A stretch of 64,000 nucleotides of DNA from assembly GCA_003054695.1 (NCBI GenBank), contig QAZA01000050.1, positions 62,001 to 126,000 of the forward strand, in the 5' to 3' direction. The notes beneath the pieces are model-generated. The model ran no database searches and was not told where the DNA came from. It saw nothing but the letters and a program-made list of their open reading frames with translations. How positions within the stretch are numbered: position 1 is the first letter of the stretch; each line of letters begins with the position of its first letter. The stretch comes from Verrucomicrobia bacterium LW23 (lineage in GTDB: Bacteria > Verrucomicrobiota > Verrucomicrobiia > Methylacidiphilales > UBA1321). A program made the translations under genes and the position numbers. Below are positions 34,615 to 53,779 of the stretch, in pieces.

Positions 34615-35709
34615 ATGCAAATCATTAGCGGCTCCGTACAGGAGCGCATGCAGCGGCTTCTCGACGGCTACACACAAAACGGCCGGGAGTGGGGCCTGCA
34701 GATGGCGGTCTACAAGGATGGCGAACTCCTCGTGAACGCAGCCTCCGGCGTTACGCAAGGCACGGATGGCGAAGCAGTTACGGAGAATACGCTCTTCCCA
34801 GTCTTCTCCACCACCAAGGGCGTGGTGGCCACACTGGTCCATCTGCTGGTGGAGCGCGGTAAAATCTCCTACGACACGCCCGTGGCCGAGGTTTGGCCAG
34901 AGTTTGCGACAGGCGGCAAGGAACATGTCACACTGCGCCATGTGATGAATCACACGTGCGGCCTAGCCAATATCCCCCTCGCATGCACGGGCTACGACCA
35001 GCTGTGCAACTACGACTGGATGTGCGCCCTGCTGGCCGCGCAGACGCCCAACACCCCTCCCGGCACTGAGCGCGTCTACCACGCTCTTACCTACGGCTGG
35101 CTGATGGCCGAGGTGGCGCGCCGCGTGGACGGCCGACCGATTGCGCAGATGATGCGCGAGGAGATCACTCGGCCGCTGGGCATCCGCGACATGTTTGTCG
35201 GCCTGCCCGAGGGCGACCCGCACACTGTGGCCACGCTGCACGAGGAAGCGCCCGAGCCAGTGCCCGCGCCCGGCACTCCCCTGCCCGTACCGCACTGGAT
35301 GCGCCCCCTGGGCACCGCGATGAATCGCCCCGACGTGCACCGCGCCTGCGTGCCCGGCGCCAACGGCCTGATGAGCGCCGCCGCCGTGGCCCGCCACTAC
35401 GCCGCGCTGGTGCCCGGCGGCGTGGATGGCGTGGAAATCCTCCCCGCCTCCCGCATCGCCGCCGCCTCCGCTCTGGAGCCGGACCAGACGCCCGGAGACG
35501 ACATCATTGCCCTGGGCTACCGCGTACACCAGAACCAGGGCGGCCGCCCGCTCGCGACCTTCGGTCACGCCGGGTACGGCGGCTCCTTCGGCTGGGCCTG
35601 CCCGCAACGCCGCCTGGCCGTAGGCTTCACCAAAAACCTCTTCACCAAAGTATGGCACGTCGCCGACATCGTAACCGCGCTGCTGGACGCGGTGGATGCC
35701 AGGGGGTAA
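34615..35709 (+). CDS. Serine hydrolase, beta-lactamase class C/esterase family
   Basis: 364 residues without a signal peptide. The catalytic Ser-x2-Lys is STTK at residues 65-68; the second element, normally Tyr-x-Asn, reads Tyr-His-Ala in RVYHALTYGW; a late HAGYGGS replaces the KTG box. Those changes are usual in esterases and D-aminopeptidases of the family rather than true beta-lactamases. Neighbouring tsaB may be co-transcribed, 60 bp upstream. Confidence 0.85.
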   Translation: MQIISGSVQERMQRLLDGYTQNGREWGLQMAVYKDGELLVNAASGVTQGTDGEAVTENTLFPVFSTTKGVVATLVHLLVERGKISYDTPVAEVWPEFATGGKEHVTLRHVMNHTCGLANIPLACTGYDQLCNYDWMCALLAAQTPNTPPGTERVYHALTYGWLMAEVARRVDGRPIAQMMREEITRPLGIRDMFVGLPEGDPHTVATLHEEAPEPVPAPGTPLPVPHWMRPLGTAMNRPDVHRACVPGANGLMSAAAVARHYAALVPGGVDGVEILPASRIAAASALEPDQTPGDDIIALGYRVHQNQGGRPLATFGHAGYGGSFGWACPQRRLAVGFTKNLFTKVWHVADIVTALLDAVDARG

Positions 35710-35720
35710 GCACGTTCCCT

Positions 35721-35817
35721 CCTTTGTGTCTTCGTGTCTTTGTGGTGAAAAATCCCCTCTGTGATTCCCGGCTTTCCGGAGAGGGAGTTTAACCACCAAG
35801 GCACAAAGAGACAAAGG
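35721..35817. repeat. Inverted repeat of the dispersed 'CCTTTGTGTCTTCGTG' family
   Basis: The left arm 35721-35749 (CCTTTGTGTCTTCGTGTC, then TTTGTGGTGAA) and the right arm 35788-35817 (TTTAACCACCAAGGCAC, then AAAGAGACAAAGG) are near-complementary around a 38-nt loop. This GTG-TCTT-GTGGT type of repeat is widespread in environmental bacterial genomes. It lies between two convergent genes and can form a long bidirectional hairpin. A partial related piece, CACGAAGGCACGGAGG, is at 13850-13865. Confidence 0.7.
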
Positions 35818-35837
35818 GGGAAGCGGAAGGAAGTACG

Positions 35838-38800
35838 CTACGCGTCCAGCGGCTCCGGATCGGTGCTCGCCCGCTTTTTGCGGTTCCACTTTTCCTTGGT
35901 GTCTTCCCACAGCTTTTGCCAGCGCTCAATGGTAAGCATGAAGAGGGAGGCGGCGTTCAGAGTCAGGGACATGAGCACAAGCACCACGGTGTTGAACCAC
36001 ACGGTGGAGACCTCGATGCCGGTGAAGGGGATGTGTTTGCGGGAGACGATGTTTTCGCCGTCGTCCATGTAGCGATGCACGGGCTCGTTGCCCCACTTTA
36101 CTTTCAGGTCGCGCATCATCCCTTCTTCGCGTCTGCGGATCTCCATGCTCTTCTCGTCGAACGCTTTCTCGCCCATCTGGGCGGTCAGCTTTGCGATGTT
36201 GTCGCGCATGTAGTCGCGCTCGGCTTTCACTTTGTAGTAGTCGTTAAACCAGGTGTTCTTGTCGTAAATTACCATCATGCCTTCGTAGGCCCAGCGGGAG
36301 GGCATGATCTCCGCGATCTCCGGCACTTTACGGGATTTATCCATCTTGAGGTGATTCATGTTCTTGAACTCGAACACGATAGAGCCGGCCAGGATGATCT
36401 GCAGCATGATGATAACCGGAACGCAGAACGACGCCGCCTTCTCGGAGATCCTCGGGATCGCCGAAATGCACAGCCCCGTGGAGATGCCGCACAGGCCGAC
36501 GACCGACAGGAAGGCCAGGAAGTGGCCGAAGAGCTCGTACACGCTCAGGATGGGAAGCGTGATGATGAGGAACAGAGCAATCTGCAGGACAGTAAAGAAC
36601 ATCAGGTTGGTGATCTTCGCCCCTAGATATTCGGTCACGCGGATGTTCAACATCTTCTCCCGCAACAGGATGTGGCGATCCTTAATAATCTCGTGCAGGC
36701 TGTTGGAGAGCGAGAGGAAGAAGATGGTGACGACCGTGAGGAACAGGTAGTTCGGGAACGCCTCGTTACTGTAAAGCTCGTATACGTCGTTGCCCGTCGT
36801 CTGCCGACACACCATGCCGACCGTAACAGCCAGCGCCGCGCCGACCGCAAAGGTAGCCACCAGGCTAAAGCGGTTGCGCAGCTTGCTGATAAAATCGCGC
36901 TGCAGCAGGGTGACGAACTGGCGCCACCGGTCCATCCACGTCAGCTGGCGAAAGGGCTGGATATCGATGGGCCGCTGCCGCTCAAACTCGATCGTGCTGC
37001 GGCTGCGCGTAAACTCCTGGTACTTGCGCTTCCAGTACTCCGGTGGATTTTTGCGCTGGGGCAGCGGGGTGCCGTCGATGTTGATCAGCGGCGTCTCCAG
37101 CGTCTCCAGCAAAAGGTCCGGCTCCAGCTCGCTGATGTCCTCAGTCTCCACCTCCACGCCCGCCTCGCCGGCAAAGTAGAGCAGAGCCTGGCGCACGGTG
37201 CCGAAGAACGCGAGCTTGCCGCCGCGATCGAGAAACACCACGCGATCGAACAGGTTGAAGATTTTGGAGCTGGGCTGGTGGATGACGACAAAAATCATCT
37301 TGCCGCGCAGGGACAGATTCTTCAGCAGCTCAATAATCTTCTCGGAGTCCTTGGAGCTGAGGCCCGAGGTCGGCTCGTCGAGGAAATAGATGTCGCTCTC
37401 GCTCAGCAGCTCCAGGCCGATGTTCAAGCGCTTGCGTTCGCCGCCGCTCAGCGTTTTTTGCAGGGCGCCGCCGACGAACGTGTCCGCCTTTTCGGCCAGG
37501 GCCACCTCGTTCATCACGCGCATTACCAGGTCGCGGATGTAGGCGTCCGGGTGGAACGGGAAGCGCAGGCGGGCGGAGAAATAGAGGTTCTCGAATACCG
37601 TAAGCTCTTCGAACAGAAGGTTTTCCTGCGGCACAAAGCCGATGCGGTGCTTGAACAGCTCGTGCTCGCGATGCAGATCGCGCCCGCCGATAAGCACCTG
37701 CCCTTCGCTCGGCTTGTTGAAACCGGTGAGGATCGAAAAGAGCGTCGATTTACCGCAGCCGCTGGGGCCCAGCACGCACACCAGCTCGCCCATGCCGATG
37801 CGGAACGACACGTCGTCGATGGCCAGCTTGTTTTTGCTGCGCTCGAAGCGGTAGCCCAGGTTCACGACGTCGATCGTGCGGAGCTGGCTCAGGCTGGTCT
37901 GGAAGAAGCCGGTGCGTAAGTCGCACACCAGCTTAAGGTTGCGGATGTAAATTGTGTCGCCGTCGTGCAGGCGCGTGGGGAACTTGATGCGCTTGTCGTT
38001 TACAAACACATCGTGCGGGCAGGCGCCGATCTCCAGGCTCCACGCCCCGCCATCGCGCACAATGTTGGCCACCCACGGGTTGGGCAGGTCATCGTACACC
38101 AGCACGGCATGCTGGCTGGCCGCGGGGTGGTTGGTGATGGTGAGCGCCACGCGGCCGGACTGCGCGGAATACTCCTCCGGTACGGTCTCGAAGAGGATCT
38201 TGCGCAAATCAAACTCCAGCCCCTCCATGCGCAGGCGGTCGTCGAGATTCACCTGGCGGCGGATGGGCACGCCGTTTTCGGCGGCGGGCACAGGCTGGTT
38301 GTTGATGACCAGCGACTCGCCCTCCTTCAGCGGCTCCACCCATATCAGCCCGCGCTCCGTCTCCACGCGCAGCAGGCTGGCGGGGCTGCGCTCCACATCC
38401 AGGCGCGTCTTGTTGTCCGGCGTGCGGGCCAGGTAAACAACCGTGACTTTGCTGGGCGCGATGTGGCGGCGGAAGTAGTAGATCAGATCAACGTAGGAGA
38501 CCGTGTAGTTGTTGATCCGGAGGTTGTAATTGCACTGTAGCTTGGCCACAAAATTGCGCGTAAGCGGGTAGCCGTTGGCCTCCACCTGGTACAGTGAGTC
38601 GCTCTGTAGCACGTAGAAGGACGAGCCAATCTTGAGCAGGCGCAGGAAAACGCCGGGCATCGGCAGCACAATATCCGCGCGCTCGGGTTCCGGCGCCACG
38701 GTCAGCACCTCAATGCTGGCGCCGTCGCGACGCGGCATGTGGCCCGTGCTGCGGTAAAGCTCCTCGATGATGTCCAGATCGACGTCGTTGACGTCCATCT

Positions 38801-40803: not shown

Positions 40804-42273
40804 CTATCCGGCCTGCTGAGTGTCGAGAGAATCCCCTGCTGTGGCGACGGGGCGCTCCAGCGTCTCGCTCATGGTGCTGATGAGGCTGGGCAGGCTGATA
40901 CGACGGAAGATAAACCATGTCAGCCCCACGGCCATGTAGCCCAGGAAGATGTACGGAAACAGGTTGTTGGGATACTCCGGCGGGGGCATCAGCGTGCTGC
41001 CCGGTATACCCACCGACGCGATGAGCGGCAGCAACATAAAGCCGATGCCCAGCACGGAGTACGCCACATCCCGCCTGCGCAGGCTGCCGATGCGACGCAG
41101 GTATACGGGAGCGGCCAGTGACACCAGGATGTAGCCGAGCAGGAAGCCAAAGCTGCAGATGGTGCCGAAGTGGCCTTGCGCGTCGAAGGCCGACATACCG
41201 GTAAGCCCAAGCACGGCTGTAGGCAGGAGAAACGTGGCGCCCGCCGCCATCAGTACAGCGACATAGGGCGTACGATTGGCATGGTGCGCCTCGCCCAGGG
41301 CATCGTGAAAGATGCCGTGGCGTGCCATCGAAAAGACGATGCGCGCCGAGGAGTTGATGCACGCCAGCGTGCAGGAGAAGAAGCTGAGGATAACGCCCAG
41401 GTTGATGAGGTAGATCAAAGGCCCCAGCCCGGTTTTGGCCGCAAGCAGATCCAGCGGCGCGTGGGATGTGGCGAGATCCTCGGAAAGCCCGCGGAAGCCC
41501 AGGACAGTAATGTAGCCCATCAGCAGAAAGAAGACGCCCGTAAACAGGGTGCTCTGGATAATGGACCGCGGGATGGTACGGAGCGGATCGCGCGCCTCGG
41601 AGCCCAGCGCGGTGGAGCTCTCAAAGCCTGAAAAGCCGAAGACCACCAGGATAATCCCCGCAAACACGCCGCCCGGCGTCGTGCCCTCCAGCTTAAGCTG
41701 CGGCATATCGATGGCAAACCCTGTGTTGCCCCACACCAGCATGCCGAGCGCCAGGATGGTGAAGATGGAGGCGGCCTCCAGAATCAGCATGGTGCGCGCG
41801 GAGAGCTGGATATCCCTGTACGCGACAAAGCAGGCCAGCGCGGTGCCCAGCGCAAAGTAAGTGATCAACGGCAGGTGCACACCAGCGTTGACAAACACCG
41901 CATCGGTAAAGATAGCGAACCCGCACAGCGTGGACATGCCCGTAAACGAGTAAGCCAGCAGCATCCCCCAGCCCGTCATCATGCCGGCTGTCGGCCCCAG
42001 CCCCTGCACAATGTAAGCGTACAGCGAGCCCGGCGATGCAGACCGCCGCGCAAACTGGTTGATGTTGAAGCTGACAAAGAGCAGTCCGATCATCCCCAGC
42101 AGTATGCTTAGCCATGTGCCGTTACCCGCCGTCGCGAAAATCAGCCCCATAACCGCAGCCGGGATGGTGGATGGTGCGATGACAGCGATGGATTGTGCGA
42201 TGACCTCGGGGTAGGAGAGGCAGTTGGTTTTAAGCTCCGCAGCGGCAGGTTGGGGTAAGGCTGTGTTGGACAT
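40804..42273 (-). CDS. APC-family amino acid permease
   Basis: 489 residues from the ATG at 42273; an upstream start would add 35 residues of no obvious function. About 12 to 14 hydrophobic helices are present. The helix-1 segment (AQSIAVIAPSTIPAAVMGLIFATAGNG) and the conserved FGFSGFESSTALGSEAR in helix 6 are typical of the APC superfamily, where they bind the amino acid. It precedes bioF on the minus strand by 153 bp; a link between uptake and an amino acid-consuming enzyme is possible but not shown. Confidence 0.88.
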   Translation of the reverse strand: MSNTALPQPAAAELKTNCLSYPEVIAQSIAVIAPSTIPAAVMGLIFATAGNGTWLSILLGMIGLLFVSFNINQFARRSASPGSLYAYIVQGLGPTAGMMTGWGMLLAYSFTGMSTLCGFAIFTDAVFVNAGVHLPLITYFALGTALACFVAYRDIQLSARTMLILEAASIFTILALGMLVWGNTGFAIDMPQLKLEGTTPGGVFAGIILVVFGFSGFESSTALGSEARDPLRTIPRSIIQSTLFTGVFFLLMGYITVLGFRGLSEDLATSHAPLDLLAAKTGLGPLIYLINLGVILSFFSCTLACINSSARIVFSMARHGIFHDALGEAHHANRTPYVAVLMAAGATFLLPTAVLGLTGMSAFDAQGHFGTICSFGFLLGYILVSLAAPVYLRRIGSLRRRDVAYSVLGIGFMLLPLIASVGIPGSTLMPPPEYPNNLFPYIFLGYMAVGLTWFIFRRISLPSLISTMSETLERPVATAGDSLDTQQAG

Positions 42274-42878
42274 GGATGTCGATGGGCACGTGAGTGGGGA
42301 AACGCGGCGAGGCAGAACCAGGCCGTAGGAAATCCGGGCCGTCAAAGGGCGCGGACTACCGGCGGAAGTGGTGGACAAAACAGGGAGCCTTCTGCAAACG
42401 ACTGAACGCGCCGGCGTAGTTCAGCTTGCAAAGAGGTGGCCGACTGTTCCCACGTGGGATCCAAGCCGGGCCGGTGAAGTGCGATCAAGTACTGCGCCCT
42501 GGCGGACTGCCGAGGGGAGCACTGGCGATACGTCCTGTTGGACAGGTTGGTAATAATTAGCTTAGGGCGAGGCGATGATCAAGTGCAAATTTTGATCTAC
42601 AACCCACTTTCCTTCAATGAGTTACAACACGACAAGATCCATAGGTTTTTAGGTGAAAGCCGACTTACCCATGGGCAATTAGAGTTTAGCTTCTGCGAAA
42701 GTACATGACTGTCATGCTGTTAGATCCGACGATCAAAGGAAGCTTCCGGGCTGCATTGCACGGCTTTTGACGGCTTAGATCGTGTTTCCTATTGACTTTA
42801 TAGGCTTTTTAAGAAATAACTCGGTCTTATCCGCTGCCGCCACATCAGCGCAATGCACACCACTCCCTCACGCCGCCT
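42274..42878. other. 605-bp divergent intergenic region with structured GC-rich part and AT-rich promoter part
   Basis: The first part (about 42400-42550) is GC-rich with several short inverted repeats, including a CCCACGTGGG palindrome at 42456-42465. The second (42550-42840) is AT-richer and contains the promoter candidate at 42792. I compared the first part with 5S rRNA, SAM and cobalamin riboswitches and found no convincing match. Confidence 0.4.
42792..42820 (+). promoter_or_regulatory. Candidate sigma-70 promoter of the YezD-like gene
   Basis: TTGACT at 42792-42797 and AATAAC at 42815-42820 with 17 bp between. The -35 box is close to consensus and the -10 box is poor. It ends 58 bp before the first gene of the metal cluster. 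Confidence 0.35.
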
Positions 42879-43262
42879 ATGAGCGAAATCGACCCCCCTT
42901 CGCACGACTCTACCCCTGAGCCGGGTGCTACGCACTCCGCCGACGCCAACGGCAAGTCCGCCGGCACGGCTTCGGCGCCAGCTTCGCCCGGGGCTGCCGC
43001 AAATGGTACGCGACGCGTGCAGCGAAAAGGCGGGGCGGTCAGGCCGACGCCGCCACCTGCCGAGGTGGTAAGCCGCATCCTGTCGGCGCTGTCGGGCCTG
43101 GATTACGGTTCAGTGGAGATTATTGTGCAGGATAACCACGTGGTTCAGATTCAGCGCACGCAGCGCTCGCGCTTTGCGCGGCCGCTGGATATTCCCCAGG
43201 TGCCCGCAGCCATCTCTTCGGCCTCCACGCCGAGCGCCCCGTCCGCCCGTAACGGCGCCTGA
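42879..43262 (+). CDS. YezD-like (DUF2292) small protein
   Basis: 127 residues. Residues 1-60 are a Ser/Ala/Pro linker. Residues 62-100 form the DUF2292 core: VVSRILSALSGLDYGSVEI, then VVQIQRTQRSRF. This short domain is found in Firmicutes and Verrucomicrobiota, often with sulfate or metal uptake genes, but its role is unknown. It starts a plus-strand pair with the SRPBCC gene, 15 bp upstream of it. Confidence 0.8.
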   Translation: MSEIDPPSHDSTPEPGATHSADANGKSAGTASAPASPGAAANGTRRVQRKGGAVRPTPPPAEVVSRILSALSGLDYGSVEIIVQDNHVVQIQRTQRSRFARPLDIPQVPAAISSASTPSAPSARNGA

Positions 43263-43277
43263 CCGGGAGTCTACGCT

Positions 43278-43760
43278 ATGTCGCTGGTCCAAACCGTGGA
43301 TATTCAGGCGCCGCTTGGCGGGGTATTTCTTGCCGCGGCGGACGTGGCCAGGTGGCCGGAGTTTATGCCGCATATTCGCTACAACCGTTACCTCAGCCAT
43401 CACCCGGGCGGTGGCACCATCCGCACGGCCGCCACCCGCGCCGGTGTGGTGTTGCACGGCGTTGCCGAAGTGGCGATCGACCCGGTGCTGCAGGAACTTC
43501 GCTTTACACACACCTCCTCCACAGCCGGTGCCGGCACGGGCATGACGGTAACGTGGGGCTTTAAGGAGCTGCCCGACGGCGACACGCGCGTTACCGTCAC
43601 CCACACCTTCTCCGGCGGGGCGGAGGTGCGCGCCGGCGTTGTCGGGCGCGGGTTGAGGAAACTCTTTTACGCCGAGGACATTACCGCCCTTTCGCTCCAG
43701 TGCCTCAAACGCCGGGTGGAGATGCAGCAACTTTCACCCGGGGCATCCCGGTGGATCTGA
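43278..43760 (+). CDS. SRPBCC-fold (polyketide cyclase/CoQ-like) protein
   Basis: 160 residues. The START/Bet v1-like fold is visible from the first strand-helix QTVDIQAPLGGVFLAAADVARWPEFMPH and the late strand with VTWGFKELPDGDTRVTVTH. Such domains hold a hydrophobic ligand in a deep cavity. No signal peptide. It ends the YezD-like pair, followed by a strong hairpin. Ligand unknown. Confidence 0.85.
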   Translation: MSLVQTVDIQAPLGGVFLAAADVARWPEFMPHIRYNRYLSHHPGGGTIRTAATRAGVVLHGVAEVAIDPVLQELRFTHTSSTAGAGTGMTVTWGFKELPDGDTRVTVTHTFSGGAEVRAGVVGRGLRKLFYAEDITALSLQCLKRRVEMQQLSPGASRWI

Positions 43761-43790
43761 CGCCGGGCGGTTGTCGAAGCGCAAGCTGTC

Positions 43791-43821
43791 GACGCACGGG
43801 CGGTGACTTTGCCCGTGCGTC
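43791..43821. terminator. Bidirectional terminator between SRPBCC and Gly-rich protein genes
   Basis: GACGCACGGGC (43791-43801) pairs perfectly with GCCCGTGCGTC (43811-43821). It separates two convergent genes. The 11-bp stem is strong, but no T tract follows on either strand. Confidence 0.75.
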
Positions 43822-43825
43822 TGCG

Positions 43826-44410
43826 TTACGCCGCCGTTTTGGCCTGCGCGGCCCGGGCGGCCGAGAGGCGGCGAAACATGCTGGGCAGCGGATGCGGATG
43901 AATCACCGCCTGACGCCCGGCCGCGACGGACGGCACCGAGGCATCGGCGGCGACACCAGCGGCCGTGGCTTTGCGGCGGGTGGTCTTCTTCGCCACCCTG
44001 GGGGAGGCGGCGGCAATGGCGGGCTCGGGCCGGGCGGGCGCTGCCGCAACCACGGCTGCAGCGGCTGCAGCGGCGGCGGCGGCAGCCTCGGCTTCGGCGG
44101 CGGCTTTCATGGATTCGCGAAACTCTTTCTCGGGATCCCAAAACAGGTAGAGCACATCCACCCAGTCGTAGCCCAGCTTCTCCAGCACGGTGTCGGACAG
44201 ACCGCGCGCGTTTTGCAGGCCGGCGCTGACCGTCATGCCGGCACCAAAACCCATGGCAATGCCGGCACCAAATCCCACAGCTATGGTGGCGCCAAATCCC
44301 AGCGCCGCGGTGGCACCCAGCGAGAGGGACGAGATGACGAGACGAGTGGACATGTCACGCACTTTAGCACATTCCCGATGGAAGGCCAGAACTTTGTCTA
44401 GTAATTCCAT
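43826..44410 (-). CDS. Glycine-zipper membrane protein with Ala-rich coiled tail
   Basis: 194 residues. Between about 25 and 65 lies a hydrophobic run with repeated GFGA units (ALGFGATIAVGFGAGIAMGFGAG), which is a glycine-zipper type membrane helix pair as found in proteins that pack tightly in or curve membranes. Then a region WVDVLYLFWDPEKEF and a long Ala/Glu helix (residues 98-122, with over 20 Ala) followed by a basic Lys/Arg/Ala tail. No domain recognised. An alternative start at 44353 removes 19 residues. It is adjacent to and divergent from the degenerate P-type ATPase gene; the two promoters share only 50 bp. Confidence 0.68.
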   Translation of the reverse strand: MELLDKVLAFHRECAKVRDMSTRLVISSLSLGATAALGFGATIAVGFGAGIAMGFGAGMTVSAGLQNARGLSDTVLEKLGYDWVDVLYLFWDPEKEFRESMKAAAEAEAAAAAAAAAAAVVAAAPARPEPAIAAASPRVAKKTTRRKATAAGVAADASVPSVAAGRQAVIHPHPLPSMFRRLSAARAAQAKTAA

Positions 44411-44460
44411 GGATTTTATATAACATACTCAGAACGCTCACCTACAGACTCCCGATCGCC

Positions 44461-47187
44461 ATGCCTACCGCCGTCGCCGTACGCCAATCCCCAACCTCCG
44501 CCCCACCCAAAAAGCCCGGCGCCCGGGCGCCACGCCCCGCGCCTGTGGGGCGGGAAATCCCCACCGAGCGCCTGCGCGATGTGTTGCCGCCACGCATTAC
44601 ACCTACCGCAAGCGGCATCGCCATCTGGCACGCCACACTCTTCTCCACGCCTGCCTCGGAGCACAGCCGCCTTTTCATCCAGCGGGTGTTTGAGACGGCG
44701 CACGTTGCAGGGATGGAGATTGACGCGCAGCAAGGCGTGGCTCGCCTCGCGTTCGGCCACGCAACCTCACCCGCCGAGGCGGTGCGCCATTTGCGCGCCG
44801 CGCTGGCCCGTCCCGTGGAGAGCACGGGGGCCAATCCCGATCTCGAGCTGTCGGCCGGGCTTTTCCTGCAGCCTTTTGAGGATCACCCCATCCGCATCTC
44901 GCGTGCCGGAGCGTATCTCACTACCTGGACGATCGAGTTCCAGGGCGCGGACTCCGTACGCCTCTCCCACCCCGTGCTCAAGCGGCGCCGCGACGTAGCG
45001 TACCGGCTGGAGGAGGAGCTGACCGCCGTGCAGGGCGTGCGCGATTTCAGCGCCAGCGTTTACGCCAGCTCCATCACCATCCGCCTTCATCGCCGCCGCA
45101 TCGATGTGCCGCGCCTTCTGCGCCATCTGGAGCACTGCTGGCCGCGCCTTATCCACGGCCTGGAGGGACCGCCTCCCACCACCCGGCTCATCGCCTCCTT
45201 TACGTTGCTGACGGGCGCGTTTGTGGGCCAGTACTTTATTCCGGCGCTGACGCCGTTTGTGCTGGCCGGGATGATCGCCTACGCCTCCACCAACGTCTAC
45301 ACCGCGCTCACGCAGCTGCTTCGCGGCAGGATCGGCCTGCCCATGCTGTACACCGGCACCATCACGTTTACGACCATCAGCGGCATGCCTTTTGCGGCCG
45401 CGTTTATGGCCACGTGGATGCAGCTGTGGCCCCGGTGGACGCGCAAGCTCCTTGTCTCCAGCCAGCGCCGGCTGTTTGCGGGCCACCGCCAGCGCGCCAC
45501 CTGGGCGCGGCGCCTGGACGCCGGCGGGCGCCTGGCCGAAGTGGTTATCGATCACATCCGGCCCGGCGACATCATCATTGTGCGCGACGGCGAAATCATC
45601 CCCGTGGACGGCGTGGTGGAGGCGGGGCTGGCCGCCGTGGACGAGGAAGTGCTGACCGGGCGCGCCGGCGCCCTCGACAAGGCGCCGGGCGACGCCGTTT
45701 ACGCCGCCACGCAGATCCGAACCGGGCGCATTGCCGTGCGTGTGGAACTTATTGGCGTGGAGACCCTTGCCGGCTACATTGGCGAGAACCTGCCGCACGG
45801 CCCCATCGATCGCCTCCCCACCTCCGCCGAGGCGGAGACCATCGCAACGCGCATGGTATGGCCGGCCCTTGCTCTCTCAGCGGGCAACCTGCTGCTGGGC
45901 GGGCCGATGCAGCCCTCGCAATCCACCATCCGGCCGGACTACGCCACCGCCCCGCGCTTCAGCGCCCAGCTTGCCGCGTTGCACGACCTGAGCGACGCGC
46001 TGCGCCGGGGCATTGTCTTTCGCGATCCCGCCGCGCTGTGCCGCCTGCCCGCCACCGACATTTACGTGTTTGACGACTCCCCCGCGCTGCTGCGGCGCAA
46101 CGTGGCTGTGGGTGCGGTGATTGCCGGTCGCCTCTCGGTCACCCGGGTGCTCAGCTACGTGGCTTCGGCGTTTCCCGCGTTTCAGAACGAGCGGGCGCGG
46201 GCGCTGATGCAGGAGAGCCTGCGGCGCCGCGCCCCGCTGCTGGCAATTTCCCAGCGCACGCGACATGCCGGGTCCATCAGCTACGTGGATGCCGACGGCG
46301 ACCAGATTGAAATTGCGACGCCCGCCTTTGTGCAGGCCCGGAGGATCCGGATTCCCGCTTCGATCCAGGCCAGGCTGACCACCCTGCAACAGGCGCGCGT
46401 TTGGGCGGGCGGCGCGGCGGATGCGGACCCGGTGCTGCGGCCGCTCTGGGCCATCCGCAACGGGGCTATCGTGGGCGTGGTTACATTCGAGAGATCCGGC
46501 GAGGCCGAGGCGGCGGAGACGATTGCGGTGCTGCGCGCGCGTAATCCTCGCGCCACGTTTGTGCACATCTCCCGCCACAGCCGCACCAATGCACAGGAGC
46601 TTGCGGCGCGCATCGGTATCGAGACGGTCTACGCCGGCCTTAACCCCACAGGCAAGGCGGACGTACTGCGCAGCCTGGGGCGCCGCACCATGTGGATCGG
46701 CGATGGCAGCCTGCCGGAGTCCCGCACGTGCATGGAGGCGGCCGGAATCAGCATCTCCGTGGGCGGCGCGGCCACGCTGCCGCTGGACGGCGCCCAGGTC
46801 GTCCTTCTGCAAGGCGGCGTGCGCGGCCTTGTGCCGCTGCGGCGCATGGGGCGGCATCACCGCGCGCTGATTAAGGAGGGATATCGGACGGTCTTCGCGG
46901 CCAATCTCTTTTGCGTGGCGGGCGCATTTTTCGGCGGATTCAACACACTGGCCGTCGCCATTGTCTCCAACCTGGGGACGGGCTATGTCTACGCCAGGCA
47001 CCGCAGCCTGCTCAACGATCTTATCGCCCGGATGGAAGCCCGCATGGGAAGCACCTCCGTGGACACGGCCGAAGAGCCCGACCCGCAGGATGCGGCGGAC
47101 TTTGCCGACGCCCACGTAACGGAGGCGTCGGAAGACTATATCGAGCACGATCTGGACGCAGCGACGACTCAGGACCAGCCGATCTGA
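44461..47187 (+). CDS. P1B-like P-type ATPase homologue with all catalytic motifs degenerate (pseudoenzyme)
   Basis: 908 residues, intact frame. Two N-terminal ferredoxin-like repeats (about 55-125 and 145-240) and two membrane helices are followed by the actuator, where the essential TGES is TGRA (399-402). The phosphorylation motif DKTGT reads DDSPA (538-542), so Asp538 remains but Lys, Thr, Gly and Thr are lost. The HP nucleotide motif is absent (AFQNERARA), and GDGIND is GDGSLP (747-752). The intramembrane metal-site cysteine of its paralogue has no counterpart. All losses fall at catalytic positions while the scaffold aligns along its length to the active gene at 49159. It is therefore a probable non-pumping partner or scaffold, not a decayed gene. 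Mostly unchanged reading frame and codon use support selection. Confidence 0.85.
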   Translation: MPTAVAVRQSPTSAPPKKPGARAPRPAPVGREIPTERLRDVLPPRITPTASGIAIWHATLFSTPASEHSRLFIQRVFETAHVAGMEIDAQQGVARLAFGHATSPAEAVRHLRAALARPVESTGANPDLELSAGLFLQPFEDHPIRISRAGAYLTTWTIEFQGADSVRLSHPVLKRRRDVAYRLEEELTAVQGVRDFSASVYASSITIRLHRRRIDVPRLLRHLEHCWPRLIHGLEGPPPTTRLIASFTLLTGAFVGQYFIPALTPFVLAGMIAYASTNVYTALTQLLRGRIGLPMLYTGTITFTTISGMPFAAAFMATWMQLWPRWTRKLLVSSQRRLFAGHRQRATWARRLDAGGRLAEVVIDHIRPGDIIIVRDGEIIPVDGVVEAGLAAVDEEVLTGRAGALDKAPGDAVYAATQIRTGRIAVRVELIGVETLAGYIGENLPHGPIDRLPTSAEAETIATRMVWPALALSAGNLLLGGPMQPSQSTIRPDYATAPRFSAQLAALHDLSDALRRGIVFRDPAALCRLPATDIYVFDDSPALLRRNVAVGAVIAGRLSVTRVLSYVASAFPAFQNERARALMQESLRRRAPLLAISQRTRHAGSISYVDADGDQIEIATPAFVQARRIRIPASIQARLTTLQQARVWAGGAADADPVLRPLWAIRNGAIVGVVTFERSGEAEAAETIAVLRARNPRATFVHISRHSRTNAQELAARIGIETVYAGLNPTGKADVLRSLGRRTMWIGDGSLPESRTCMEAAGISISVGGAATLPLDGAQVVLLQGGVRGLVPLRRMGRHHRALIKEGYRTVFAANLFCVAGAFFGGFNTLAVAIVSNLGTGYVYARHRSLLNDLIARMEARMGSTSVDTAEEPDPQDAADFADAHVTEASEDYIEHDLDAATTQDQPI

Positions 47188-47227
47188 GTCTTTCAGGCCA
47201 GGCGTCGCTGCCTGCCAGGTTCCGCCC

Positions 47228-47716
47228 TCAGGCGGCGGAGCTGTCGGCCTCGGCGGCGGCGGCTTCCTTTTTGGCGCGGGAGCGGCTGCGCGAGCGGGAC
47301 TTGCCGGAGCGGGGGCGCGGCGCGGGCGTTTCGGCTTCAACTTCGGCTTCTTCAGCCTCTTGCTCAGGCGCTTCGGAGATCTCCTCCTCGTCAAACTCGC
47401 CAGGGACGATGCCGCGGCGGCGGGCATGGGCTTCCAGGGCGGCGTCGGCGCCTTGCTCCAGGCCTTTGCGCAGGGAGCTGTTCTCGGGCAGAAGCTCCGT
47501 CAGGAACACAGAGGTGAACACAACCCCGTAAGAGAAGCCGAATCCCGCGTTAAAGATACCCGTGTTGACTGCGTGCTTGACGTTGCCAGCGGCCACTTTT
47601 GCGGACTCGCGCGCATGCGCCGCCGTGTCGTGAAAGTGCTCCGACGCAGAGCCAAGCGCTGCTTCAATGTCGGCAAAGGGGATGGTCTTGGACTCCGTCT
47701 GTTTTTGGGTTGCCAT
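47228..47716 (-). CDS. Membrane-associated protein with acidic and basic tail, DUF5132-like
   Basis: 162 residues from the ATG at 47716. Residues 1-45 are an amphipathic helix. Residues 50-75 are a hydrophobic glycine-containing segment (TGIFNAGFGFSYGVVFTSVFL), again of the Gly-Phe-Gly type, like the protein at 43826. Then a helix with SLRKGLEQGADAALEAHARRRG, an acidic Glu-rich stretch, and a basic RSRSRSRAKK tail. It resembles small DUF5132-type proteins that occur beside metal P-type ATPases, but this is a weak resemblance. It lies 37 bp downstream of the ExoD-like gene in the same direction. Confidence 0.6.
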   Translation of the reverse strand: MATQKQTESKTIPFADIEAALGSASEHFHDTAAHARESAKVAAGNVKHAVNTGIFNAGFGFSYGVVFTSVFLTELLPENSSLRKGLEQGADAALEAHARRRGIVPGEFDEEEISEAPEQEAEEAEVEAETPAPRPRSGKSRSRSRSRAKKEAAAAEADSSAA

Positions 47717-47753
47717 AGTGGTGCTGATGTTGGTGGTTAGGTAAAGTGGGGGG

Positions 47754-48632
47754 TTACAGGCCGAGGAACGACGTGAGGCCGATGACAAGCGCGCCGAGCG
47801 CCAGCACGGAAATCGCGCCAAGGACAACGCCGGCGCAGATGATCAGCCCGTCGCGCTCCACCAGGCCCAGGCCGATGATGAAGATCGAGATGGCCTGCGG
47901 CATGTTGAAGCCGGGAATCGGAAAAGCGATGGAGAGCGCCAGGAGAAACACGAACATGCCGATAAGCCGCTGGGCACTCGGCGAGGACGCCCACTCCCAG
48001 CGCGGTTTGGTCGACTTTTCGGCGCGGCGCAGCACGGGCAAAATAGCGTAGACCGCCGCCGCCAGGGCCTTGCGCGGAACGGAGCGCTCCAGCAAAAACT
48101 TCGGCAGCCGCACTTCCTGCCGCCCCGCGGACATCTGCCAGCCCAGCGCCAGGGTGGGTAGCACCACCAGGGCCGAGATGCCCGGCATGGGGATGGGAAG
48201 TACCTCGGGCAGCGAGAAGAACATCAGCGACGTGCCGAAAGACGAGACACCCAGCACCTGCAGGATCTGCTCCACGGTAAAAGACTCCGCCGTGGGGTTT
48301 TGCGTCAGGATGGACTGCAGCCGCTCCGAGGTGCGCCGCGTATCCTGGCGGAAATGGCTTTCCGGCCCGGGGGGCGGCAGCGCCTTCAGTGCCGGGAACC
48401 TGGGCTCCGTACGTTTGGGGGCGGGTTGCGTGCGTACCAGGCGGAGGGTGGCGGAGGTGGAGGTGGCGGCGGAGGAGGGCGAAGATGCTGGCGCAGGCGC
48501 TTTGCGGGGACGGCTCGCGGCCGCCGGCTGTTTGCGAGGGGCGACGGCTCCGCGCTTAGCGGATGTTCGCTTTTTCGACTTCGCAAGGCGTTCAGGCGCA
48601 GCGGCTTGAGTTGGGGATACGTGCTGGGTCAT
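47754..48632 (-). CDS. ExoD-family membrane protein
   Basis: 292 residues. The first 95 are a Lys/Ala/Pro/Ser-rich disordered tail, absent from usual ExoD proteins of about 200 residues. From about 100 on is the ExoD domain, with MFFSLPEVLPIPMPGISALVVLPTLALGWQM and SIAFPIPGFNMPQAISIFIIGLGLVERDG, each a repeated proline-rich membrane segment. ExoD affects exopolysaccharide synthesis and pH tolerance in rhizobia; the mechanism is unknown. Same direction as the downstream small membrane protein at 47228. The ATG follows CCCTCCCCCCGTTCCCCCG. Confidence 0.82.
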   Translation of the reverse strand: MTQHVSPTQAAAPERLAKSKKRTSAKRGAVAPRKQPAAASRPRKAPAPASSPSSAATSTSATLRLVRTQPAPKRTEPRFPALKALPPPGPESHFRQDTRRTSERLQSILTQNPTAESFTVEQILQVLGVSSFGTSLMFFSLPEVLPIPMPGISALVVLPTLALGWQMSAGRQEVRLPKFLLERSVPRKALAAAVYAILPVLRRAEKSTKPRWEWASSPSAQRLIGMFVFLLALSIAFPIPGFNMPQAISIFIIGLGLVERDGLIICAGVVLGAISVLALGALVIGLTSFLGL

Positions 48633-48824
48633 AGACGGGGGAACGGGGGGAGGGTTGAGCGAGGCTTATCCCGAGGGCTCATGGCGGGAGGATGAACTTC
48701 CCTAGTAAGTCTGTCAACTCAGAATAGAACTTTCTTGACTTGATCTATCGATTCACACAATTTCGCCCTGCAACCTTTCACACCGCAACTCACTCACATC
48801 CTGCACCCCGCACACTCACTAACC

Positions 48825-49103
48825 ATGCTAGACAAAGCCAAGATCCGGGCCATCAAGCGCAACGCCAGGCGTTCCCGCCACCCTCGGGAGTACCCGCTGG
48901 CTGACCTGACCGTCGCCCGGAACGCTGTGCAGGAGCTTCAGCCCTACGTCAAGGCCGGGCGCGAAGCCTTTGAGCACGCCTATGCCACCGTGCTGCGCCA
49001 GGTGTACGAGAAGAAGGAGGCGCTGGAAGATTACATTGCCGAGCGAAAGGCTGCGGCCCGTCTGCAGCCTCCGGCGCCTAAAATTCACCCTTTCTCCCGG
49101 TAA
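48825..49103 (+). CDS. Small basic helical protein upstream of the active P-type ATPase
   Basis: 92 residues, entirely helical in pattern. The N-terminus is strongly basic (KAKIRAIKRNARRSRHPRE) and the middle has a Tyr/Val heptad helix (AYATVLRQVYEKKEALEDY). No membrane segment or known domain. It lies 55 bp upstream of the P-type ATPase and in the same direction, so it is likely co-transcribed. Could bind nucleic acid, polyphosphate or an acidic partner; not determined. Confidence 0.6.
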   Translation: MLDKAKIRAIKRNARRSRHPREYPLADLTVARNAVQELQPYVKAGREAFEHAYATVLRQVYEKKEALEDYIAERKAAARLQPPAPKIHPFSR

Positions 49104-49158
49104 ACGCACATCGCGCCGATCGCTCCCGCCCTTCCCTTAACCTTTAAGCCCGCCCCTC

Positions 49159-51783
49159 ATGCATCAGGTTTCCTTGAAAACGACGACCCGCCCGCAGCCG
49201 CTCCAATCGGCCCCCGTCAAGCGCAAGGCGCACACAGCCAGCGCCGAGGCCCCCGCGCTGCGCGACATCCAAATCAACTTCCCGGGCGGCCTGCGGTTCC
49301 AGATCCGTTCCGCCTCCCTCTTTGCGGATCCGTACAGCGAGGCGGTCCGCACGTTTATCAGCCGCGTCTTTCGCTCGCCGGAGGTTCAGTCGATCGAGAT
49401 CGACGGGACGGCCGGGACGGCCGAGATTGCTTTTGTAAGCCTGGACGGCACCTCCGGCCGGCGCCTGATCCAGCGCATTGGCCGCGCGCTGGCGGCGGAG
49501 GAGCACGCGCAGGACGCCGTGGTGGATCTCTATATTCCGCCCGCGCCGCTCTCCGCACAGGATGCCCGGCTGATTTCGGTGTACCGCTACGGCTCGGTTA
49601 TCTCCACCTGGGCTGTGCGCCACCAGACACCGGGGCGCCTTCGCTTTCGCAATCCGTCCATCTACCGCAAAAAGGACATTTGCCAGGCCATCGAGCGCGA
49701 GCTGATGAGCGTGCCCGGCATCGAGCGCTACAAAACCAATGAGCTGACCAGCACGGTGCTGGTGCACTATAACCCGCGCGCCATCCGTAAGCGGCAGATT
49801 GTCGAGCTGCTGGACCTGGTGCTGCGCCGCGAAGCCCAGGAGGGCCGAACGGCCATGGATCTGGACCTGCCGCTGGCCACCGCCTCGCTGGCCCTGGCGG
49901 CCACGGCGCAACTGGCGGCGCCCGCGCTTTTGCCGGTGGCGGCGGGCGTGTTTGTGTACTCCACCATCCCCAGCTTTAAGGCGGGGTACGAGGTTCTGTT
50001 CAAGGAGCGGCGCCTGGGTGTGGATGTGCTGGACGTCATCGTTATCGGCGTCTGCCTTGCCACCACGCAAATCTTTGCCGGCAGCGTGCTGGCGTGGTGC
50101 TTAAGCTTTGGCCGCAAGCTGGTAAAGAAGACGGAGGACGACAGCAAGAAAATGCTGCTCAATGTCTTTGGCAAGCAGCCGCGCTTTGTGTGGCTGTACC
50201 GGGATGGCCAGGAGATCGAGACCGCGCTGGAGAAGCTGAAACTGGGCGATATCATCGTTGTCAACACCGGCGAGACAGTGCCGGTGGACGGCGAGATTAC
50301 CGAGGGCCTGGCGATGATCGACCAGCACTCGCTTACCGGCGAATCAGCGCCTGCGGAGAAAGCCGTTGGCGATAAGGTTTTTGCGTCGACAACCATGGTG
50401 GCTGGCAAGATCAAGGTGGCCGTTACCAGCGCCGGCAGCGAGACGACGTCCGCCAAGCTCACGCGCATCCTTAACGATACGGCCGGCTACAAGCTGCGCT
50501 CGCAATCGCAGGCGGAAGAGCTGGCGGACAAGGCGGTGATCCCCACTCTGGGCCTCGCGGCGCTGGGCCTCAGCACCATCGGCGTCAACGGCGCCACGGC
50601 GGTCATCAACTGCGATCTGGGCACCGGCATCCGCATGGCGGCGCCGCTGGCCATGCTGACCTCCCTGACGCTGTGCGCGCAGCACGGTATTCTTGTGAAG
50701 GACGGCCGCGCGCTGGAACTGATGCGCAAGGTCGACACCTTCCTCTTCGACAAAACCGGCACGCTTACACGCGAGCGGCCCGAGGTGGGGCGCGTCCTCA
50801 CCTTTGGCGGCTATACGGAGGCGCAGATTCTCACCTGGGCGGCGGCGGCGGAGTACAAGTTCAGCCACCCCATCGCCAAGGCTATCATCAGCAAGTTCGA
50901 GTCGCTCGGCCTTCCAATGGCCCAGATTGATGACTCGAAATACCACGTGGGCTACGGCATTACCGTAAGCGTGGACGGCTATACGGTACGCGTTGGCAGC
51001 GTGCGCTTTATGAAGCATGAGGGCATTACGTTGCCGGAGAACCTGAGCCACGAGATCGAGGCCGTGTATGGCGAAGGCAACTCCGTCATCCTTGTGGCCG
51101 TGGACGACGCGCTGGGCGGCGCCATCGAAATGTGCGCGGCCAATCGCCCCGAGGTCGAGGAGGTCATCCGCGGCCTGCGCGAGCGCGGCGCCAGGCACCT
51201 GGCCATCATCTCCGGCGATCACGACCGGCCCACCCGCCGCCTGGCGGAGAAGCTGGGGATGGACCGCTACTTTGCGGAGGTTCTACCCCAGGACAAGGCG
51301 CGCTATGTGGAGCTGCTGCAAAAGGAAGGCCGCACCGTCTGCTTTATCGGAGACGGCATCAACGACTCCATCGCCCTCAAGCGCGCCAACGTCTCCATTT
51401 CGCTGCGCGGCGCCTCCAGCATTGCCACGGATACCGCGCAGGTGGTGTTTATGGAGGAAAGCCTGGCCAAACTGCTGCAGCTACACGATATATCCCAAAG
51501 TCTGCAGCGCAATGTGGACCGCAGCTGGAACATCATCATCGTGCCCAACGCCATCTGCATCACCGGCGCCTTCCTCTTCGGCTTCGGCGTCATGCACTCC
51601 ATGATCTTCAACCAGATCGGCGCGATCTTCGCTTTAGCCAACGGCCTGCTTCCCCTGCGCCGCGTCGCCCAGGCGCAGGCCGAGCTGGAACGCGCCGCCA
51701 CCGAGCTGATCGTCCCGCACGACTATGAGGATGAGGATGACGAGGAAGCGCCTCTTCACACGCGTGCCGGCCAGGGCAGTTAG
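49159..51783 (+). CDS. P1B-like heavy-metal P-type ATPase, catalytically complete
   Basis: 874 residues. Two N-terminal ferredoxin-like domains (about 40-115 and 135-230) precede a membrane domain. Catalytic motifs are all intact: TGES at 393-396, DKTGT with the phosphorylated Asp531, the HP motif in KFSHPIAKAI, and GDGIND at 731-736. The metal-site motif, normally CPC in the sixth helix, is replaced by NCDLGTG with Cys485-Asp486, so it belongs to a non-canonical metal group and the ion cannot be told from sequence. It is full-length relative to its degenerate paralogue at 44461. The C-terminus is acidic (DYEDEDDEEA). Probably pumps a transition metal across an inner or intracellular membrane. 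Confidence 0.9.
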   Translation: MHQVSLKTTTRPQPLQSAPVKRKAHTASAEAPALRDIQINFPGGLRFQIRSASLFADPYSEAVRTFISRVFRSPEVQSIEIDGTAGTAEIAFVSLDGTSGRRLIQRIGRALAAEEHAQDAVVDLYIPPAPLSAQDARLISVYRYGSVISTWAVRHQTPGRLRFRNPSIYRKKDICQAIERELMSVPGIERYKTNELTSTVLVHYNPRAIRKRQIVELLDLVLRREAQEGRTAMDLDLPLATASLALAATAQLAAPALLPVAAGVFVYSTIPSFKAGYEVLFKERRLGVDVLDVIVIGVCLATTQIFAGSVLAWCLSFGRKLVKKTEDDSKKMLLNVFGKQPRFVWLYRDGQEIETALEKLKLGDIIVVNTGETVPVDGEITEGLAMIDQHSLTGESAPAEKAVGDKVFASTTMVAGKIKVAVTSAGSETTSAKLTRILNDTAGYKLRSQSQAEELADKAVIPTLGLAALGLSTIGVNGATAVINCDLGTGIRMAAPLAMLTSLTLCAQHGILVKDGRALELMRKVDTFLFDKTGTLTRERPEVGRVLTFGGYTEAQILTWAAAAEYKFSHPIAKAIISKFESLGLPMAQIDDSKYHVGYGITVSVDGYTVRVGSVRFMKHEGITLPENLSHEIEAVYGEGNSVILVAVDDALGGAIEMCAANRPEVEEVIRGLRERGARHLAIISGDHDRPTRRLAEKLGMDRYFAEVLPQDKARYVELLQKEGRTVCFIGDGINDSIALKRANVSISLRGASSIATDTAQVVFMEESLAKLLQLHDISQSLQRNVDRSWNIIIVPNAICITGAFLFGFGVMHSMIFNQIGAIFALANGLLPLRRVAQAQAELERAATELIVPHDYEDEDDEEAPLHTRAGQGS

Positions 51784-52097
51784 CCAAGGCAGTTAAAATA
51801 CTAATATATAAAACCCACGGACCGCCGCAAGGGCGATCCGTGGGTTATAAACCCTGGACAAGGTGGGGGTTGCAGGAGAGTACGAAGATCCCTCCCTGGC
51901 CAGGGACATGGCCTGGATTTCCACCAACAGGAATAGCTGCCGTATTGTGAGGCCGGCCTGCCGCGCTTACAGCTTGCCTTGCTTGTGTGGCTACGCTGTG
52001 GGGCTGGGGGCCGGCCCCCGAGGGGGGGTGTTTGCTATCTTATCCGTACCGGGCCTGCGTCACACGCGGGTGCGGCGCAGGCGCTCCGGGGAGGGAA
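51784..52097. other. 314-bp intergenic region with terminator
   Basis: Apart from the bidirectional terminator at 51812, this stretch holds a GC-rich part with the palindrome GGGGGCCGGCCCCC around 52008 and no gene-like open frame. Confidence 0.5.
51812..51846. terminator. Bidirectional terminator of P-type ATPase and lipoprotein genes
   Basis: AACCCACGGA (51812-51821) pairs perfectly with TCCGTGGGTT (51837-51846). The plus strand is preceded by A/T, and on the minus strand the stem is followed by TTATATATT, so it can work for the lipoprotein gene as well. Confidence 0.75.
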
Positions 52098-52778
52098 TCA
52101 ATAGTAGGTCATCAGCACGTCGCGGATCTCGCGAGCAGTGCGGGTCATGTCCAGTGTCAGGCCGGAACCCGCGTCGCCGGGGCCCATCTTGCGACCGCTG
52201 CCGTACCCTTCCTTCTCACCGCGGCACTTGTCGGAGTAAGGCACGCCGGTGTCGAAGGACAGAACGTAGCGGGTCTTGCTGACGGAGAGGTCATACACGT
52301 ACACGCGGGTGGAGAAGGTCGTCTCGCCGGCGCCAAAGCCAAACGCGGTGCGAAGCGCGCGGCTGCCCTGGTACACCTTCTTGAAGTCGCCGCCCACCAG
52401 CCAGCCCTGATCGGGCAGGTCGTCCTGCCAGCGCAGCTGGGTCGGGGCGATCTTGGTGAGACGCTCCTTCAGGATGTAGAGGAACTGCGACTGGAACTCG
52501 CGCTTGAATTCCTTTGCGTCATACCCGCGGCGTTCGCCGATACGCAGCTCGGGCAGCTGGGTCTCGTGCAAGCTTTGCGGACGATCGTTCCCGATCAGCC
52601 ACTGCGCCGTATCAATATTGAACGGAGCGACGTAGATGACGGGCGGGGCGGGGCGCAGTCTCGTAGACGAGCTGCGCACCGGTTCGGTGTTAATGGAGCC
52701 GCAGCCGGACACGAACACACTGGCGAACGTGACGAGCGCGAGCACGGTTAGAGTTGAGAGCGCCTTGATGGATGCCAT
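52098..52778 (-). CDS. Lipoprotein (DUF4410-like)
   Basis: 226 residues. A signal sequence with lipobox VSGC (Cys at residue 26) marks an outer- or inner-membrane lipoprotein. The mature part has IYVAPFNI, a helix with EFKREFQSQFLYILKERL and RVYVYDLSVSKTRYVLSFD, which fits DUF4410-type lipoproteins. Function unknown. The upstream region is exceptionally AT-rich. Confidence 0.75.
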   Translation of the reverse strand: MASIKALSTLTVLALVTFASVFVSGCGSINTEPVRSSSTRLRPAPPVIYVAPFNIDTAQWLIGNDRPQSLHETQLPELRIGERRGYDAKEFKREFQSQFLYILKERLTKIAPTQLRWQDDLPDQGWLVGGDFKKVYQGSRALRTAFGFGAGETTFSTRVYVYDLSVSKTRYVLSFDTGVPYSDKCRGEKEGYGSGRKMGPGDAGSGLTLDMTRTAREIRDVLMTYY

Positions 52779-53003
52779 AATGCCGCAAAGTTAAAACAAG
52801 AAGCGGGCTATGTGGCAAGAGAATTTAATAAGTTTTTAAGTAAAATCTTACGTAGATTAGGTTTGCTCTTTTGTTTACTGACTTTTTTATCGCGAAATAA
52901 GTTATTATACATACAAGCAATTATACCCATTTTCCCTCTCGTAAGTACGTTACGCAGCCGGGCCTGTACACTACGCCAACCCGGCGGTTGCGATCGCACC
53001 GCT
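52779..53003. promoter_or_regulatory. AT-rich promoter island upstream of the lipoprotein gene
   Basis: About 225 bp with markedly lower GC than the rest, containing several TATAAT-like elements on the minus strand (for example TATAAT around 52905 and 52925). No clear -35 partner at the standard distance was found. It is the probable promoter of the lipoprotein gene. Confidence 0.4.
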
Positions 53004-53603
53004 CTACTCGCCTTTGCCATCAACACCGGGGTCCTCACCAGGGGTAGTGCTGGAGCCCGAAGAAGAGGAGGCCGAAGGGCTCCCCCGTTTGGACCAGTCC
53101 ACCGTCGTGGGCAGCAACGTTACCAGGATCAGCAGCATCGCAAAAAAGGCCCACGCCAGCGCAAAGCCCATGCCTACGCTGACGGCGGCCCTTGCAAAGC
53201 TCAGTGCCGCCGCGGCCGCGCTTATGCCTGCCTTGTGGTCCTCCTTCTCGGCCGCCTTGCGCAGGCAGGAGGCGCACAAAAGCTGGTCGTCATGCTCCGT
53301 TACGCACTCGCGACAGAAGAATCGGCGGCACTCCGGGCAACGCGCCACGGCCTCTCGCGCGGCGTGAAAGACGCAACGCTGCCGGGCCAGGCCGCCCCTG
53401 GCGGGGGAGGAAGCGGGGGCTGTCGGTTGCACTCCCACGCCCGGCCCGCCCAGAGACGAAAAGGCCGGGCCCGCGCCCACAAAGCCGTGTGGGGGCGCAG
53501 GAGGCGCTGGCTCAGGACTCGGCACAGGCCCAGGCCCAAATGAGGGAGGCGGTGCTGGCGGGGGCGGAGGAGGAGGAGGGGGCGGCATGGGCTTACCCAA
53601 CAT
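53004..53603 (-). CDS. Zinc-finger membrane protein with polyproline N-terminus
   Basis: About 199 residues from the ATG at 53603; starts at 53588 (ATG) or 53627 (TTG) are possible. The N-terminal 70 residues are almost all Pro, Ala and Gly. A B-box-like zinc finger (CVFHAAREAVARCPECRRFFCRECVTEHDDQ in sections, then LCASC) follows at about 75-115, and a C-terminal pair of hydrophobic helices (FARAAVSVGMGFALAW, FFAMLLILVTLLP). It shares its finger arrangement with the protein at 25110. Pro-rich tails are ligands of GYF domains such as that at 25742; a contact between them is speculation. Confidence 0.72.
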   Translation of the reverse strand: MLGKPMPPPPPPPPPPAPPPSFGPGPVPSPEPAPPAPPHGFVGAGPAFSSLGGPGVGVQPTAPASSPARGGLARQRCVFHAAREAVARCPECRRFFCRECVTEHDDQLLCASCLRKAAEKEDHKAGISAAAAALSFARAAVSVGMGFALAWAFFAMLLILVTLLPTTVDWSKRGSPSASSSSGSSTTPGEDPGVDGKGE

Positions 53604-53779
53604 CCCGCAAGGCGCTTCGCAATGCAATCGAAAGTGCGCCCTGGGGCCAAAACGCCTTGCTTGCCACTGGAGGGCGATTCCTCCTCCGCGTCATCCTTCG
53701 CGGCACTAAAGTTTGTCGACATTCGACTAACGTGGAGAAGATTCCCCCCTTTTCCCCCGCCAGCCCGGCGGCTCGGGCC

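Follow-up and report, generated by a model that had tools for sequence, protein, structure and literature searches.

The closest described systems to the locus analysed here combine a P-type ATPase with small membrane proteins. The locus lies at positions 42879-51783 of a 64,000-nucleotide stretch of DNA from Verrucomicrobia bacterium LW23 (the window), and encodes a P-type ATPase with intact catalytic motifs (49159, named by its start position), a homologous ATPase whose motifs are degenerate (44461) and small Gly-rich membrane proteins. Ferrosome (fez) systems likewise have a P1B6-type ATPase bearing an HMA_2 domain and small Gly-rich membrane proteins; the fez cluster of R. palustris CGA009 is RPA2333-2338 (PMC12016538), and FezC is a DUF4405-type cytochrome (PMC10979944). 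In Mycobacterium tuberculosis, PacL clusters the CtpC pump in metal-efflux platforms (effluxosomes), and DUF6110 relatives are encoded together with P1B6 pumps (PMC9374683, PMC13043812).

On balance we lean towards the view that the LW23 locus specifies a two-ATPase membrane module, in which a working pump would have a catalytically dead paralogue as its obligate partner and Gly-rich proteins as scaffolds. KdpFABC and other multi-subunit P-type ATPases also join a P-type ATPase to a non-catalytic membrane partner. However, the KdpFABC-type partner is unrelated to the ATPase, while in the module it is a dead paralogue.

The active and the dead ATPase

A preliminary description of the locus had taken the two ATPases for homologues, one intact and one degenerate. 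The motifs and an end-to-end alignment (~25% identity) agree with this, and all of the open reading frames (ORFs), motifs and neighbours that it listed are present where it placed them.

The active protein, 49159, has two N-terminal ferredoxin-like domains, the second being an HMA_2 domain with GRLRFR, and carries the TGES, DKTGT, HP and GDGxND motifs of P1B-type enzymes. Against Pfam and NCBIfam it is a P1B ATPase (TIGR01525, 408 bits, over the cut-off) with HMA_2 (PF19991, 5e-10). Its fourth transmembrane segment (TM4) reads NCDLGTGIRMAAP. We aligned 83 active and 59 dead proteins. Among the actives, the Glu of TGES, HP and the GTGIR of TM4 are found in 83/83, DKT and GDGxND are found in 82/83, and the TM4 consensus is [LV]N[SC]D[FL]GTGIRMAAP. 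TM4 and TM6 are without the Cys and His of Cu, Zn and P1B6 pumps and have Asp, Thr and Asn there instead, with NN replacing HN in TM6. Cys299 (100%) and Cys800 (94%) are conserved in an apparent membrane region. The best explanation of 49159 is a working P1B6-like cation pump, whose cargo would not be that of a typical Cu or Zn exporter.

That cargo might be a hard cation (Mg, Ca, Mn or a lanthanide) or a non-metal, the pump then serving nutrient homeostasis together with neighbouring permeases. The Asp, Thr and Asn of TM4 and TM6 would suit this, as would CorA, CaCA-type antiporter, APC permease or sulfate transporter neighbours. However, the two conserved membrane Cys lie elsewhere in the protein and argue against it, and the neighbours differ between lineages. 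This reading, which overlaps with the proposed module, seems very unlikely to us.

The dead protein, 44461, matches E1-E2_ATPase (7e-22) and, weakly, HMA_2, and falls below the TIGR01525 cut-off. The Glu of TGES, DKT, HP and GDGxND are all lost, and by its sequence the protein cannot be phosphorylated or cleave ATP. Across the aligned dead copies, DKT, HP and GDGxND are kept in 0/59 and the Glu of TGES in 1/59. The TM4 Asp is invariant in actives and dead copies alike (100% of the dead); TM4 of the dead copies mostly reads [LI]RPD[YFW], with exact RPD in 47/59. W323 is invariant in, and specific to, the dead copies (100%), and this position is Gly in 85% of actives. The N domain is gone from 17/59 dead copies; HMA_2 and the transmembrane segments M3-M4 are retained in nearly all. 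The dead copy of Methylobacterium radiotolerans pMRAD05, annotated 'hypothetical protein', is 614 amino acids (aa) long, and most of its A domain has apparently gone too; it scores 291 bits with the profile of dead copies vs 51 with that of actives. Searches of plasmids for dead homologues returned mostly ordinary P-type ATPases. For 44461, structure prediction confidently gives a complete P-type fold with a pair of ferredoxin-like domains at the N terminus (predicted local distance difference test, pLDDT, 87.3; predicted template modelling score, pTM, 0.85), and the solved structures closest to it are ZntA, CopA and ATP7B.

A search of 84,980 species genomes with a profile of the active copy yielded 80 loci, with hosts in Verrucomicrobiota, Planctomycetota, Alphaproteobacteria (Hansschlegelia, Xanthobacter, Rhodoblastus, Methylopila, Methylobacterium), Azomonas and Methylococcaceae. 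There are 78 non-duplicate loci, of which 35 are flanked on either side of the active gene by over 4.5 kb of sequence (the well-flanked set). Recurrence of the gene set had been proposed as a check on the locus. In the well-flanked set, a dead ATPase lies within 4.5 kb of the active one in 33/35 loci, although the loci were found with the active protein, so such counts give the frequency of dead neighbours among actives and not the frequency of the module. A Gly-rich protein of a family that we call GFG, after its Gly-Phe-Gly segments, is likewise present in 33/35, in line with the expectation that small Gly-rich membrane proteins go with the active ATPase. Whole-genome searches of ten cultured genomes found, in nearly all of them, a single active and a single dead copy lying near each other on the same contig. 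Few of 387 genomes sampled from the window's phylum give a strong match, in keeping with spread by transfer.

All dead copies group together in a single, fully supported clade (100/100), both in a tree of 75 proteins and in one of 24. Because long branches are in play in these trees, the TM4 signature shared by the dead copies is a useful second line of evidence. Independent inactivation in each lineage was rejected, both for grouping type-I dead copies with their own actives (approximately unbiased test, p-AU 6e-41) and for type II (4e-6); the two types are the locus layouts described below. For 55 loci we also built one tree of actives and another of dead copies and compared the two. They have 40/52 splits in common (label permutation mean 0.25, maximum 3; Mantel r 0.85), and both place Methylococcaceae among Planctomycetota and Azomonas among Alphaproteobacteria. 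This matching inter-phylum placement implies that the pair moved together. In close pairs with measurable synonymous change, the ratio of nonsynonymous to synonymous substitution (dN/dS) is about 0.11-0.39 for dead copies and 0.03-0.24 for actives; by this measure, purifying selection acts on the dead copies. What the sequences show is that the dead copies are inactivated, arose once, are maintained by purifying selection, are linked to the actives and are inherited with them. Judging from the trees, the pair dates from one ancient duplication and has been kept together across several phyla. Because it has been kept together for so long, its dead member almost certainly retains a function, and apparently one that has not been described.

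These results bear on the earlier suggestion that the locus might equally be a plain metal efflux system. On that reading, the second ATPase would be a decaying duplicate. The active ATPase is a P1B member. However, the dead clade is ancient, of single origin, co-inherited, under purifying selection and marked by invariants of its own; the active protein lies outside the ordinary P1B clade; and no metalloregulator family is recurrent among the clustered neighbours of module loci, unlike in many efflux operons. Selection, phylogeny with mirrored trees and the absence of a regulator largely refute a decaying duplicate, and we regard a plain efflux operon as highly improbable.

Relation to ferrosome-type and PacL-type systems

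We placed the active clade in a tree whose outgroup was a set of ordinary P1B ATPases from the same genome. The clade is nested inside the HMA_2/P1B6-like group and outside the ordinary Cu/Zn pumps, with the FezB-type proteins (L204, L205, L208) next to it as a clade of their own (100/99). The preliminary description had asked for such a placement, and its suspicion of a link to vesicle-type pumps holds to this extent: judged by the tree, the active pump is a sister lineage of ferrosome/PacL-type systems. Its nearest relatives are short GTGIR ATPases with HMA_2 (L206, L207), together with one from a Gloeothece plasmid (L130, with DUF5132 and HMA2 proteins). L206 and L207 have the same TM4 D-Y/F/L-GTGIR motif. 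However, the short GTGIR ATPases have about 710-740 aa, and no paired dead ATPase is found in the loci examined.

A search for HMA_2 led to the loci L204 and L205, in which small Gly-rich proteins and a Fur-type regulator accompany an ATPase that has the DYSCALKLATP and LHN motifs; L205 also has a separate HMA_2-like protein. We call these loci fez-like on gene content alone. No dead paralogue occurs in the fez-like loci examined. The preliminary description had raised the possibility of a distant or new ferrosome-type system. In such a storage compartment, the pump would load Fe or another metal into vesicles made with Gly-rich membrane proteins. The nesting of the active clade with FezB-type P1B6 ATPases, the HMA_2 domain with GRxRxR that both have and the several small Gly-rich membrane proteins all speak for it. 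However, the DYSCALK-type TM4 Cys motif and the HN of TM6 that mark FezB-type pumps are absent, DxGTGIR standing in TM4 of 83/83 actives. Pfam scans of window genes 42879-53627 found neither a Fur-type regulator nor a FezC-like DUF4405 gene. The small proteins of fez-like locus L205 have no phmmer match among module ORFs, although such proteins are short and fast-diverging. Ferrosome membership is not supported by pump residues, regulator or cytochrome gene, and we consider a ferrosome-like compartment unlikely. A survey of fezC-like DUF4405 genes in 198 Xanthobacter-family genomes found no P-type ATPase in the nine regions examined.

The resemblance to PacL/CtpC is a P1B6-like ATPase beside a small protein with a Gly-containing transmembrane helix and a helical tail. 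Unlike CtpC, the module pump is without CPC in TM4 and HN in TM6, and no pseudo-ATPase has been described for PacL/CtpC. The two Gly-rich membrane proteins and the 92-aa protein of the window matched no credible family in Pfam and NCBIfam scans. Neither the GFG family (32 members) nor the PacL-like proteins have a credible Pfam match, and they match neither DUF1490 nor DUF6110. The GFG model consists of helices, with confidence in a central core only; the PacL-like protein has a helical part rich in Glu, Lys and Ala and no clear transmembrane segment. By analogy with PacL and CtpC, the GFG, Gly-zipper and PacL-like proteins probably cluster pumps in the inner membrane.

Gene content of the loci

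The ExoD-like, YezD-like and SRPBCC neighbours named in the preliminary description have matching Pfam families (Table 1), and the conserved neighbourhood extends beyond the range first given to include an APC-family permease. The DUF2292 protein is an uncertain member of the module. The ORF of the GFG protein, read as 47228-47827, opens with a TTG that lies within exoD; translation more probably begins at an ATG near 47716. Outside the locus, the window gene at 53004-53627 (-) has a B-box-like zinc-finger match just under the cut-off (1.6e-5), a Pro-rich start and a likely transmembrane segment.

Table 1. Genes of the window in and beside the locus
Feature	Coordinates	Strand	Observations
APC-family permease	40804..42378	-	same subfamily is a conserved neighbour in 13 type-I loci; outside the range first described
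YezD/OscA-like DUF2292 protein	42879..43262	+	1.7e-12; not found in other loci
SRPBCC protein (Polyketide_cyc2-type)	43278..43760	+	3e-8; adjoins active ATPase in L050 too, near active in L051
Gly-zipper membrane protein, Ala-rich tail	43826..44410	-	counterpart in Spartobacteria locus L050 (1.5e-10)
Pseudo-ATPase, 908 aa, paralogue of active ATPase	44461..47187	+	TGRA, DDSPA, no HP, GDGSLP; TM4 IRPDYATAP; whole P-type fold predicted
Gly-rich membrane protein, GFG family, core SYGVVF...P...G..DGA	47228..47716	-	accompanies nearly every active/dead pair; no Pfam family
ExoD-family integral membrane protein	47754..48632	-	PF06055, 7.2e-50; conserved neighbour in type-I and CorA-type loci
Small basic helical protein, PacL-like	48825..49103	+	directly upstream of active ATPase; relatives elsewhere at same place
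Active P1B6-like P-type ATPase, 874 aa	49159..51783	+	TGES, DKTGT, HP, GDGIND intact; clade placement by tree

The loci have three layouts, and ExoD, APC, CorA, CaCA-type antiporter and sulfate transporter neighbours are each lineage-specific. Type I (Alphaproteobacteria, Azomonas, the window and L050) has ExoD, the APC permease, GFG and PacL-like proteins, in most cases a 107-aa protein, which was not found in the window, and often sulfate transport genes. SulP, sulfate-binding protein or Cys ABC genes lie near the type-I modules of L050, L052, L054, L058, L060, L092, L114 and L126; in place of such genes, the window has its OscA/YezD-like gene. Type II (Planctomycetota and Methylococcaceae) has GFG and PacL-like proteins upstream, then the active ATPase, in many loci 192-aa and 70-aa proteins, the dead ATPase and often a CaCA-type antiporter. 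In the third layout (G009, G028, G005 and Methylobacterium), a CorA-like protein stands between active and dead. These CorA-like divalent cation transporters, of one lineage, are at 8780-9628 in L023, 12485-13543 in L024, 1666-2514 in L025, 7655-8533 in L128 and 35509-36405 in pMRAD05.

Some individual loci deserve mention. L050 has a second, N-domain-less dead ATPase (5184-7319, -) in one locus with the first dead copy and the active. The module of L096, from a metagenome-assembled genome labelled Candidatus Methylacidiphilales that belongs to the window's family, matches locus L024. L124 (= L025) is titled Bacteroidetes bacterium BOG_genome_mining.178, yet its locus is identical to one from the window's own family, and the title looks wrong.

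The LW23 genome, of 6.6 Mb, has two active and two dead copies in total. The second active (C11) is 63% identical to the first and has its own GFG and PacL-like proteins beside it. The second dead copy (C45; contig 45, L022 14218-16866, +) has EKDSP and TGD and shares the RPDY signature of TM4, with no active copy nearby. Upstream of the C11 GFG gene is a 124-aa protein (L021 12063-12437, -) that by eye is type III secretion chaperone-like, and that has no relative in the other loci.

Possible roles of the dead ATPase

We propose that 49159 would run the P-type cycle, which its partner 44461 could not, and that the two proteins most likely associate as a heteromer, the dead one being a structural or regulatory subunit that stabilises or regulates the pump. 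We favour a heteromer because the dead protein keeps its membrane and N-terminal domains and would be able to contact the pump or the cation. Its TM4 has Arg-Pro-Asp vs Asn-Ser/Cys-Asp in the pump, and the Arg beside the invariant Asp may lock the dead ion site. The small Gly-rich proteins may serve as scaffolds, as PacL does (PMC9374683, PMC13043812). The preliminary description had placed active pump and pseudo-pump in one complex; their co-inheritance fits this idea, while the physical complex, like the scaffold role and the pumping direction, is something that we infer.

The dead protein could also act apart from the pump, as a cation sensor, a channel or a regulator of the module, with no stable complex. 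Its retained transmembrane and N-terminal domains, alongside the loss of the N domain in some copies and of most of the A domain, apparently, in pMRAD05, would be compatible with such a role, and the dead gene is sometimes divergently transcribed. On the other hand, tight linkage, mirrored trees and start/stop overlaps (four bases shared by the two ATPase genes in L089, L100, L109 and L115) are more typical of partners, and we judge a separate role to be improbable.

It is important to set several points against the proposed module. Co-inheritance could reflect one cluster moving as a unit, its products making no contact. G420 and G647 have active copies with no dead one detected, which suggests that the active copy is the older of the two and that in some lineages it may function without a partner. 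In LW23, C11 and C45 sit on different contigs. Finally, the GFG model is of moderate quality (pLDDT 70, pTM 0.37).

In its fullest form, our proposal is a new class of hetero-oligomeric P-type ATPase, with the pseudo-pump as obligate subunit, unannotated Gly-rich proteins assembling it into a specialised inner-membrane patch or compartment, and a module that has spread between phyla. We give this an even chance of being correct; the compartment is speculation. We found no description of a conserved bacterial pseudo-P-type ATPase in the open-access literature searched, a scope that makes this weak evidence. What seems new here is the GFG family and the dead paralogue inherited along with the pump; the kinds of component are known ones. 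Cultured hosts with the module include Methylococcus, Xanthobacter, Methylopila and Hansschlegelia. If real, the complex would extend the known pump-plus-scaffold platforms, and would be a natural test of what the membrane domain of a P-type ATPase does without catalysis.

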